The notes below the pieces were generated by a model. It saw only the letters and a list, made by a program, of their open reading frames with translations, was not told the origin of the DNA and did no database searches. 33,444 bases of DNA from NCBI GenBank assembly GCA_027460615.1, contig JAPZAO010000023.1, positions 1 to 33,444 of the forward strand, written 5' to 3'. Origin of the DNA: Candidatus Methanoperedens sp. (GTDB lineage Archaea; Halobacteriota; Methanosarcinia; Methanosarcinales; Methanoperedenaceae). Position 1 is the first letter of the stretch. Each line of letters begins with the position of its first letter. The translations under genes were made by a program, and so were the position numbers. Shown here in pieces: positions 2,140 to 4,747 of the stretch.

Positions 2140-3147
<1,008 letters not shown>

Positions 3148-3187
3148 GCCATTAACCTTGCAACTGGTTGGCATCTTTTAACAAAAG

Positions 3188-3222
3188 AAACTAAACAGAC
3201 CAAATAAAACGAGATAAACTAA
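3188..3222 (+). repeat. 9-bp repeat array C
   Basis: Units aaactaaac and agaccaaat are followed by a copy with one extra base (aaaacgagat) and a degraded unit. It directly abuts the first fcl-tail remnant. Confidence 0.65.
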
Positions 3223-3307
3223 TTTGGGATGGAAGCACAAGACTTCCCTTAAAGATGGACTTCGTCTTACGTACCAAGAATTTTTAAAAAGCCAAGAAAC
3301 TAAATAG
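3221..3307 (+). pseudogene. 3' remnant of a GDP-L-fucose synthase gene (copy 1)
   Basis: The short frame reads LGWKHKTSLKDGLRLTYQEF then LKSQETK and TAG. LGWxxKxSLxxGLxxTYxxFL is the standard C-terminal end of Fcl/WcaG. Only about the last 27 codons remain; the frame is closed upstream by TAA at 3215-3217 in array C, and there is no start. The stop at 3305-3307 is made by repeat array D. It closely resembles the second remnant at 4270-4404, indicating duplicated and truncated fcl copies. Confidence 0.7.
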
Positions 3308-3332
3308 ACCAAAGAAACCAAAGAAACCCAAT
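3288..3332 (+). repeat. 9-bp repeat array D (5 units)
   Basis: Units aaagccaag, aaactaaat, agaccaaag, aaaccaaag and aaacccaat run at an exact period of nine, starting within the last codons of the fcl-tail remnant. Confidence 0.75.
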
Positions 3333-3392
3333 GAACAATGTTCATGCATTCATCCTCGCCGAGTTTTCAACCATCAACACGAATAATCTTTT

Positions 3393-3422
3393 TTGACTCT
3401 GTAATCTTTTTTGTTATAGAAT
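3393..3422 (+). promoter_or_regulatory. Likely sigma70-type promoter for the DUF5678/retropepsin pair
   Basis: TTGACT at 3393-3398 and TAGAAT at 3417-3422 are spaced by 18 bases. They lie just upstream of a good AAGGAGAG ribosome-binding site and the ATG at 3446. TATAGA at 3415-3420 with a 16-base spacer is an alternative -10. Assigned by consensus only. Confidence 0.4.
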
Positions 3423-3445
3423 TGAGTTAATAAGGAGAGAAATTT

Positions 3446-3646
3446 ATGGAAAGGATTTTGGTGACCACTGACGAATTTAATGGTCGGTATGTTGCGATGA
3501 AAAGTGTCAATGACAATACAATTGTCGGCGTAGGGGAGGATCCTGAGAAGGCTTTGAGGGATGCCGAGTCCAAAGGGTTTAAAAACCCAGTGCTTTTATA
3601 CATACCCGAGAAAGATCTTGTGCATATCTACCCTGTAGCTGAATAG
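3446..3646 (+). CDS. DUF5678-like small protein
   Basis: The 66-residue protein begins MERILVTTDEFNGRYVAMKS and continues with a GEDPEKALRDAESKG helix and a VLLYIPEKD strand. This matches the general pattern of DUF5678 proteins, in which a GRYVA/GKWVA strand, a helix of the type xxPEEALxxAxxKG and a final strand follow each other. Function unknown. A strong AAGGAGAG site precedes the ATG. It is followed 27 bases later by a retropepsin-like protease gene, a pairing I recall as recurrent, which suggests the two act together. It lies between arrays and is probably cargo unrelated to the polysaccharide. Confidence 0.65.
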   Translation: MERILVTTDEFNGRYVAMKSVNDNTIVGVGEDPEKALRDAESKGFKNPVLLYIPEKDLVHIYPVAE

Positions 3647-3673
3647 GATCTGTTACAACAACGGGGCCCAATA

Positions 3674-4081
3674 ATGTCAGCACGAGACTATCCCTTTTCT
3701 GTCATAAGGCCTGGGGATATAGCACGACCTTACCTCCCTATAATCATTATTAACCCAGATACAGAAAAGCAAATAAATGTCTATGCCCTTATTGATACAG
3801 GTGCAGATGAGTGTGCTTTTCCTGGTTCATTTGCTTCACTTCTTGGTCATAATCTGCAGGCGGGTCAATTGAAGAGGGTTAGCACAGGGAATGGAATCAC
3901 GGTTGCTTATAGCCATACCATTCGAATCATTATAGAAGAATTTTCAACTCAGGATGTTTTAGTCGATTTTATGCCCAATCTCAATATCCCATTACTTGGT
4001 GTAAGAAGCTTCCTTAGTAATTTCATTCTAACTGTTGATTATCCGAACAAACAATTTTCTTTGACATTGCCGAGTAAATAA
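3674..4081 (+). CDS. Retropepsin-like aspartic protease
   Basis: The 135-residue protein carries the catalytic block ALIDTGADECAFP, with Asp41-Thr42-Gly43 as the aspartic protease triad. A hydrophobic strand (DVLVDFMPN) and NIPLLGVRSFL follow; the latter is the usual LLGxxxLxxF element of bacterial single-domain retropepsins. Such enzymes act as homodimers with one DTG per subunit. No signal peptide is seen, so it is probably cytoplasmic. The ribosome-binding site is weak, and translation may depend on the DUF5678-like gene upstream. Substrate unknown. Confidence 0.75.
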   Translation: MSARDYPFSVIRPGDIARPYLPIIIINPDTEKQINVYALIDTGADECAFPGSFASLLGHNLQAGQLKRVSTGNGITVAYSHTIRIIIEEFSTQDVLVDFMPNLNIPLLGVRSFLSNFILTVDYPNKQFSLTLPSK

Positions 4082-4161
4082 ATGGCACCTAAGGATTCAC
4101 TCCTTTTGAGGTTAGCTACTTTCAGGCGTGATCTTTCAGCTTTCAACTTTGAACTTGTTCT

Positions 4162-4269
4162 TGACCCAATAGACACAATAAACCAGATAAACCAGAAAAA
4201 CTAGAGAGGCCAAATAAACCAGACAGACCAAACAGACCAGACAGACCAAATAAACAAGATAAACTAAAA
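4162..4269 (+). repeat. 9-bp repeat array E (12 units)
   Basis: Twelve units at an exact period of nine include agacacaat, aaaccagat, aaaccagaa, aaactagag, aggccaaat, aaaccagac, agaccaaac, agaccagac, agaccaaat and aaacaagat. It is in frame with, and directly fused to, the second fcl-tail remnant, reading Arg/Lys-Pro-Asn/Asp triplets into that fragment. Confidence 0.85.
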
Positions 4270-4404
4270 AAACCCGATGGTACTCCTCAGAAACTCCTGG
4301 ACGTTTCCAGGCTTCATAAATTGGGATGGAAGTATAAGATTTCCCTTAAAGATGGCCTTCATTTAACTTATCAAGACTTTTTAAAAACTAAACAAACCAA
4401 ATAG
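4270..4404 (+). pseudogene. 3' remnant of a GDP-L-fucose synthase gene (copy 2), fused to array E
   Basis: The frame reads [20 protein letters not shown] followed by [19 protein letters not shown], the canonical last 40 or so residues of Fcl/WcaG. The reading frame is open upstream through array E to about 4165 but has no start codon. TAG at 4402-4404 comes from array F. It is a more complete copy of the fragment at 3221-3307. The missing N-terminal 85-90 percent suggests deletion or recombination ending in the repeat. Confidence 0.75.
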
Positions 4405-4465
4405 ACCAAATAGACCAAATAGACCAGATAGACCAAATAGACCAGATAGACGAAATAGACGAGGT
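4385..4465 (+). repeat. 9-bp repeat array F (9 units, most regular copy)
   Basis: Units aaactaaac, aaaccaaat, agaccaaat, agaccaaat, agaccagat, agaccaaat, agaccagat, agacgaaat and agacgaggt run at an exact period of nine with few substitutions. It joins the fcl tail to the gmd head remnant at 4471. Confidence 0.9.
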
Positions 4466-4470
4466 TTAAC

Positions 4471-4548
4471 ATGAAGAAAGCACTGATTACCGGCATCACC
4501 GGACAGGATGGGAGTTACCTAGCTGAGTTTCTAATAGAAAAGGGTTAA
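4471..4548 (+). pseudogene. 5' remnant of a gmd gene
   Basis: ATG 4471 begins [20 protein letters not shown] and ends at TAA 4546-4548 after LIEKG. It is almost the same as the first 25 codons of gmd at 275, including an identical run spanning gctgagtttctaatagaaaa. Similarity fades after about 4560. Like the larger gene, it starts right after a 9-bp array. It is a truncated duplicate with no function expected. Confidence 0.8.
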
Positions 4549-4747
4549 GAAGTTTACAGATGAATTATCAAGGATAAAGATTTGAACCCAAGGCCCTTTT
4601 CTGGAGGCTAAACTTGGTAAAACCGTGTATAGGATTTCCACAAGTTTAAAGGATTTCCAAAATTCGTTACGATAAAAGAGAACAAATTTTATCCGAGTGG
4701 GAAAGAAAGATAAAGAATAACTCCTATCACAACTGGGCAATTTAATC

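Follow-up and report, generated by a model that had tools for sequence, protein, structure and literature searches.

DUF5678 proteins as predicted partners of a clade of prokaryotic retropepsin-like proteases in a possibly toxin-antitoxin-like two-gene module

What does a small protein of a family labelled 'family of unknown function' in Pfam do next to the gene of a retropepsin-like protease? The question is raised by a locus in a metagenome-assembled genome (MAG) of the archaeon Candidatus Methanoperedens sp., which we analyzed within a contig stretch of 33,444 nucleotides (hereafter, the window). A sequence-only reading had placed a DUF5678-like gene and a retropepsin-like gene at 3446-4081, and both open reading frames (ORFs) are found there, with their families assigned by Pfam:

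3446..3646, + strand: DUF5678 ORF, 66 aa (ORF list, Pfam)
3647..3673, + strand: inter-gene gap of 27 nt, TAG to ATG, with both ORFs in the same frame (sequence)
3674..4081, + strand: clan AA retropepsin-like aspartic protease, 135 aa, one catalytic domain (ORF list, Pfam, fold match)

The downstream protein has the motifs of clan AA, with a catalytic loop DTGADECAFP and a second motif PLLG in one small domain. It scored above the Pfam cut-offs of gag-asp_proteas (PF13975; 30.2 bits, cut-off 28.2) and Asp_protease_2 (PF13650; 25.5 bits, cut-off 24.3) and under those of RVP (15.2 bits, cut-off 20.7) and of the NCBIfam subfamily TIGR03698, clan_AA_DTGF (42.1 bits, cut-off 57.35). The residues D41-T42-G43 and L107-L108-G109 were invariant in nine protease sequences; among 56 intact related proteases, D[TS]G was present in all and the second motif, as written, in 52. 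The protease part of an AF2 joint model has a retropepsin fold, matching the Rickettsia conorii retropepsin-like protease 5c9f_A with a Z of 9.8 (rmsd 3.1 over 114 residues), EIAV protease with a Z of 9.3 and HIV-1 protease 3ttp with a Z of 9.0. Because each chain carries one catalytic Asp, the active enzyme is presumably a dimer. In its small size, D-[TS]-G loop and fold, the protein resembles the single-domain clan AA proteases of COG5550, COG3577 and TIGR03698; the accessible part of one study describes prokaryotic clan AA proteases as ORFs of ~120 residues of which little is known (PMC2642776).

The upstream protein scored 33.2 bits against PF18929 (DUF5678; cut-off 23.2), and a Pfam scan of it found no DNA-binding domain. 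Its AF2 model (pLDDT 82.2, pTM 0.65) predicts a beta-beta-alpha-beta fold followed by a C-terminal tail. Ten residues were invariant in 12 sequences (G13, Y15, V16, A17, G30, P33, A40, G44, P54 and Y62), the last two lying in the tail. We took the sequence pattern of DUF5678 to resemble HicB, but found no support for a HicB-like fold in three structure comparisons and no HicB family in Pfam at E values up to 1 for the window protein. In those comparisons, Foldseek against the PDB returned nothing below E 1 (best E 1.8), a second structure comparison gave a best Z of 3.2, to deaminases, with no convincing solved relative, and the best match in BFVD had an E of 0.069. A weaker BFVD match (E 0.23) was A0A2U7UD66, an annotated DUF5678 protein of Pandoravirus neocaledonia; the DUF5678 label thus extends to giant viruses and also to eukaryotes, a DUF5678 protein being named in a Plasmodiophora proteomics table in the accessible part of PMC12135032. 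The window's own genome, which is 82% complete, contained one DUF5678 match and one match to the protease family.

Around the pair lies a cluster of polysaccharide genes, including GDP-mannose dehydratase, epimerases and a DegT aminotransferase (Pfam) as well as glycosyltransferase-like ORFs (by eye). Scanning of the window neighbors identified epimerase, PIN, GDSL and DegT genes; one further ORF had no match. Further features around the pair are:

149-280, 2067-2134, 2754-2821, 3278-3336, 4152-4282 and 4375-4460: degenerate 9-nt repeat arrays with a unit like ACCAAATAG
1396-2051, + strand: PIN-domain protein (PF01850, 25.5 bits, cut-off 23.6) followed by a 69-aa ORF (1842-2051), with a 4-nt overlap
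3220..3328, no strand: left copy of a direct repeat of 109 nt, 82% identical, that brackets the pair and is not part of the unit
3393..3422, + strand: weak sigma-70-like promoter candidate, TTGACT-18-TAGAAT, at chance level
4317..4425, no strand: right copy of the direct repeat, likewise not part of the unit

Repeat arrays do flank the pair, as the sequence-only reading had said, with 9-nt units around 3278-3336, 4152-4282 and 4375-4460. These arrays occur both between and inside genes, one of them within the epimerase ORF at 2155-3147. Within the genome, the unit pattern matched eight times, always on this contig; reading the pattern backwards as a control gave seven matches, so its specificity is low. 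We rejected the arrays as a general part of the unit because nine of 11 related pairs had no tandem repeat within 1 kb; among these 11, L010 had one weak tandem row ~0.55 kb downstream of the pair and L004 alone had strong arrays (L004:1-69, 1088-1242 and 1536-1605), built from an unrelated 8-nt unit, TGGAAGGA. A promoter-like site common to both genes had also been claimed: the motif is present at 3393-3422, but such motifs are at chance level there, with two found against 3.4 expected in 3140-4480. Two side observations concern the same neighborhood. A short copy, 90% identical, of the start of the GDP-mannose 4,6-dehydratase gene (278-361, a region with an in-frame stop) lies by itself on the other side of the pair at 4471-4554 as a duplication remnant, and the PIN gene with its 69-aa ORF, which has no Pfam match, forms a second toxin-antitoxin (TA)-like pair 1.4 kb upstream, between repeat arrays.

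Whether the two genes belong together was assessed by a survey of co-occurrence, the check that the sequence-only reading had proposed, naming rare or random pairing as the outcome that would speak against a unit. PF18929 matches occurred in 37 of 294 genomes from the window's phylum, in 26 of 295 of the phylum of a Nitrospirae MAG (G296) and in 28 of 297 of the phylum of a Deltaproteobacteria MAG (G297), with up to nine matches within one genome; every phylum sample includes its pair-bearing center genome. Among the matches listed, we took 90 DUF5678 loci from 84 genomes, namely 29 from the window's phylum (the window itself excluded), 29 from the second sample plus two of G301, and 30 from the third. 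The protease profile used on them was seeded only with sequences from the protease search, and its hits were fed back in two rounds. A clan AA protease lay within 600 nt downstream on the same strand in 74 of the 90 loci (50 in the first pass, before feedback), as against one in the control regions (the upstream 600 nt and the reverse strand), and that one, L014, is a second pair in tandem. The pairing asserted by the earlier reading is thus neither rare nor random.

Of the 90 loci, 56 had an intact protease and 19 a broken or partial one; in four a contig end truncated it, and 11 gave no profile hit. Four of these 11 (L020, L022, L039 and L058) had protease remnants recognizable by eye, and L135 is a false DUF5678 hit, its ORF looking like a phosphoribosyltransferase. 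No protease was seen in six loci with enough sequence (L053, L065, L123, L131, L133 and L137). At one of them, L065, a DUF6932 gene stands in place of the protease, 140 nt after DUF5678. We also noted four loci (L064, L068, L072 and L077) in which a protease variant with DTGAP, DTGSA or DTGAA is paired with a DUF5678 protein bearing a long N-terminal extension.

The reverse survey started from a protease alignment (A7) that had matches in 51 of 297 genomes. Among 30 loci fetched with it, DUF5678 was found just upstream on the same strand in 22 of the 23 that scored at least 40 bits and in none of the seven below 35 bits, with a slight bias because four of the 16 rows of A7 came from loci found through DUF5678; the single exception among the high scorers, L158, has a truncated protease. 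This difference between high and low scorers indicates that DUF5678 marks a particular clade of proteases rather than all of them, and there is good support for regarding DUF5678 as the dedicated partner of one clade of prokaryotic retropepsins.

A scan of genome contigs with the window protease returned eight loci with 53-78% identity; their MAGs are labelled Nitrospirae (four), Deltaproteobacteria, Nitrospinales, Brevinema and Firestonebacteria. A small ORF lay just upstream in seven of them (L004-L010), and these pairs exceeded the Pfam cut-off for DUF5678. The eighth locus, L011, has a protease gene disrupted by a frame change, its N-terminal part lying upstream in another frame, and by eye no DUF5678 ORF precedes it. 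The nearest relatives of the pair are therefore in MAGs labelled bacterial, whereas its host is an archaeal MAG, which may reflect inter-domain transfer or a misbinned contig. The archaeal assignment of the genome comes from a Ribosomal_L19e hit; of 14 control genomes, the only ones with such a hit were four archaea. Tetranucleotide correlations between window pieces and ten other stretches of the own genome were 0.46-0.81, compared with 0.66-0.92 among those stretches and 0.57-0.74 among the window pieces.

The arrangement and evolution of the two genes were examined for further signs of a unit. In the window the genes do not overlap, unlike the tightly spaced genes of many relatives: 44 of 67 pairs with readable spacing overlapped when the start nearest to an overlap was chosen (21 by 4 nt and 12 by 1 nt, the latter spacing also seen as a stop/start overlap in L006-L009), 47 of the 67 had gaps between -13 and 0, and under a first-ATG rule 34 of 57 pairs overlapped (14 by 4 nt and 12 by 1 nt). 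Such overlap means little by itself: in prokaryotes, neighboring genes on one strand are most often spaced by overlaps of 4 or 1 nt, and short overlaps are overrepresented among genes for the subunits of heteromeric complexes, according to the accessible part of PMC10666635. The distances among DUF5678 proteins and among their proteases were strongly correlated (Mantel r 0.846, 65 pairs, 0 of 2000 permutations as high), a correlation to which shared species history may contribute. Both genes are under purifying selection, with a median dN/dS of 0.077 for DUF5678 and 0.074 for the protease in the window and six close relatives (10 and 7 of 21 comparisons, respectively, with finite dS). One locus, L034, has a natural DUF5678-protease fusion ORF that exceeds both cut-offs in the first 170 residues, the part scanned.

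Given near-obligate mutual pairing, correlated descent and a natural fusion, physical partnership is the safest conclusion, and DUF5678 and the protease are very probably partners in this sense. Their fates at decaying loci differ: the DUF5678 ORF was open in 18 of the 19 loci with a broken or partial protease and interrupted as well in the remaining one (L059), an excess of broken proteases that is partly a selection effect, since the loci were found via DUF5678, and that counts L034, where the protease is incomplete simply because it extends past the 600-nt stretch.

The pair is also carried by viruses. A search of viral contigs with the protease alignment gave four loci (L041-L044), all four with the pair, the two genes overlapping by 1 nt in L041, L042 and L044 and abutting in L043; in the former three, whose small proteins were scanned, DUF5678 was over the Pfam cut-off. 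Viral contigs yielded no relative when the query was either the single window protease or the alignment of small proteins. In L041 the pair follows a portal/minor-head gene, with ORF6N also in the locus, and in L042 it lies between terminase and head-tail adaptor genes, whereas in L044 it directly precedes an integrase gene and in L043 an integrase is 2.5 kb away. The protease of L041 had no match among INPHARED phages, and no match for the pair was found on plasmids. On the chromosomes, no Pfam family recurred in more than two of 142 neighboring ORFs, some of which are surely not genes. Together, these distributions suggest a mobile, patchily distributed module that ranges over bacteria, archaea and phages, with no plasmid match.

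A second kind of protease partner was found in archaea. TIGR03698 was present in 45 of 294 genomes of the archaeal sample, and upstream of 29 of these proteases we found a ribbon-helix-helix (RHH) protein in 14, a DUF5678 match in two and neither in 13, some of which (e.g., L095 and L098) lie near the start of a contig. The 13 loci with neither partner indicate that membership of clan AA does not in itself make a protease dependent on a partner. The RHH-protease pairs (L081-L091, L093, L096 and L097) come from one archaeal family, f7, which we take to be Archaeoglobus-like; overlap between their genes is common, and the RHH gene is split in L093. The RHH domain is N-terminal in the upstream protein and scored 31.8 bits in L087, over Pfam's 27, and 21.2 in L081, below it; the RHH profile was built from 11 of the 14 loci that it then finds. 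We predict that the archaeal RHH protein and TIGR03698 protease form a two-gene module of their own. RHH is the usual DNA-binding half of an antitoxin. The tail of the RHH proteins aligned with strand 2 and helix 1 of DUF5678 with an hhalign probability of 31.7, a value equalled in one of 200 column shuffles, and with a probability of only 3.5 when a smaller alignment was used. The upstream protein of L102 was a stronger candidate, aligning with DUF5678 at a probability of 69.6, with 14.0 bits in Pfam (below the cut-off) and an E of 0.0045 against our own profile. A relationship between the RHH tail and DUF5678 is only suggestive on these alignments.

We propose, at about even chances, that DUF5678 and the protease constitute a mobile TA-like module in which DUF5678 is the partner or inhibitor that holds the protease back. 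The unit in the earlier idea of a regulator-protease, perhaps TA-like, arrangement is borne out by the co-occurrence, and its TA-like part fits the gene order, frequent overlap, phage carriage and patchiness. Like type II TA systems such as HicAB and Xre-COG2856, the pair comprises two small co-directional genes, the putative regulator first, with a mobile and patchy spread, though for our pair with no plasmid match; the overlap seen in many relatives is absent from the window. Phages carry the pair, it is patchily distributed with up to nine matches in a genome, it lacks a recurring neighbor family and its protease often decays. Together with the gene order, these are habits of TA-like modules, although protease decay would also be expected of a module that the host can simply do without. 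In the proposed mechanism, DUF5678 would be made first and in step with the protease, being encoded upstream and with a 1- or 4-nt overlap in many relatives; it would bind the protease, possibly via its C-terminal tail, and keep it inactive or undimerized. Loss of the partner, for example when it is proteolyzed, a phage takes over or the element is lost, would free the protease dimer, which could then cleave one or more host proteins and slow or kill the cell, so that the element would be maintained or the infection aborted. That the partner inhibits rather than activates, and that the protease is toxic, is what we infer from these habits. With a little less confidence than in an even bet, we suggest that DUF5678 is a new family of antitoxin-like inhibitors and the retropepsin clade a set of proteolytic toxins, which would together act as a phage- or chromosome-borne addiction or abortive-infection module.

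The genes would also be expected to pair, overlap and descend together if DUF5678 were an activator, adaptor or substrate-delivery subunit of a housekeeping or phage processing protease with no toxicity, and the enrichment of short overlaps among heteromeric subunits (PMC10666635, accessible part) agrees with such a role, as do the regulatory or stress roles of the bacterial retropepsins RloA and RimB given in the accessible part of PMC12239564. Phage carriage, the absence of recurring neighbors, patchiness and protease decay are nevertheless better matched by a selfish or defense module, and we consider a non-toxic activator or adaptor unlikely, while giving it real weight.

We are more doubtful still that DUF5678 is a structural subunit or folding chaperone that the protease needs for folding or dimerization, even though near-obligate mutual pairing and the natural fusion (L034) would follow from such a need. 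In the one-chain joint AF2 model (pTM 0.77), the block of DUF5678 residues 11-50 had a pLDDT of 91-97, compared with 89-94 for the protein alone, but residues 51-60 were worse (68 versus 78 alone) and residues 58-80 fell under 50; this model does not establish a contact, and we discarded it as a source for an interface. The seven lower-scoring clan AA proteases had no DUF5678, and, to our knowledge, retroviral proteases need none.

The positions in L041 and L042 beside portal, terminase and head-tail adaptor genes could also mean that the protease serves phage head maturation or acts against the host, with DUF5678 as its scaffold and the chromosomal copies as prophage remnants. This seems very improbable to us, given the integrases that accompany the pair in L044 and L043, the lack of an INPHARED match for the protease of L041, and the absence of phage structural families among the 25 most shared of 183 families in the 142 chromosomal neighbors. 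Accidental adjacency, or a spurious DUF5678 ORF, can be set aside almost entirely in view of the 74 of 90 paired loci against one of 90 in the control, the reverse pairing in 22 of 23, the correlated distances and the selection on both genes, DUF5678 included.

Comparison with described systems places the putative inhibitor-protease module near several of them. RloA and RimB are bacterial retropepsin-like proteins, as is the window protease, but their partners are the ATP-grasp proteins RloC and RimK (PMC12239564, accessible part), and no gene of that kind was among the scanned window neighbors. In a survey of TA systems by Makarova et al. (PMC2701414), the accessible part of which treats COG2856 as a predicted protease in a TA-like pair, HEPN/HicB antitoxins are described as probably not DNA-binding themselves, with some fused to RHH; by analogy, DUF5678, with no DNA-binding domain found in the window protein and a weak likeness to the tail of RHH proteins, would follow this pattern. 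The words aspartyl and aspartic are absent from the main text of that survey, and the terms operon and toxin from the main text of PMC2642776. Three PADLOC defense candidates, PDC-M08B, PDC-M52B and PEPT_D, weakly matched proteases of our set, the best values being 2.2e-05 (L014), 3e-05 (L044) and 0.0032 (the window); the DUF5678-type proteins submitted had no PADLOC match at the limits used, so that the weak match to PDC-M08/PDC-M52 concerns the protease only. None of the papers listed in our literature searches describes the pair in its title or abstract, a scope with most subscription journals and bioRxiv outside it. As far as this literature shows, the component families are known, and their partnership and its spread are new.

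Regardless of which role DUF5678 plays, our findings link this uncharacterized domain to a definite genomic partner in sequences from bacteria, archaea and viruses. If DUF5678 is an activator, the pairing would still explain the control of a set of uncharacterized prokaryotic retropepsins. An inhibitory role would instead make DUF5678 a naturally occurring protein inhibitor of retropepsin-like enzymes and bring an aspartic-protease toxin into the TA repertoire, as part of a module that, if the TA reading is true, would be built on the enzyme fold of HIV protease.
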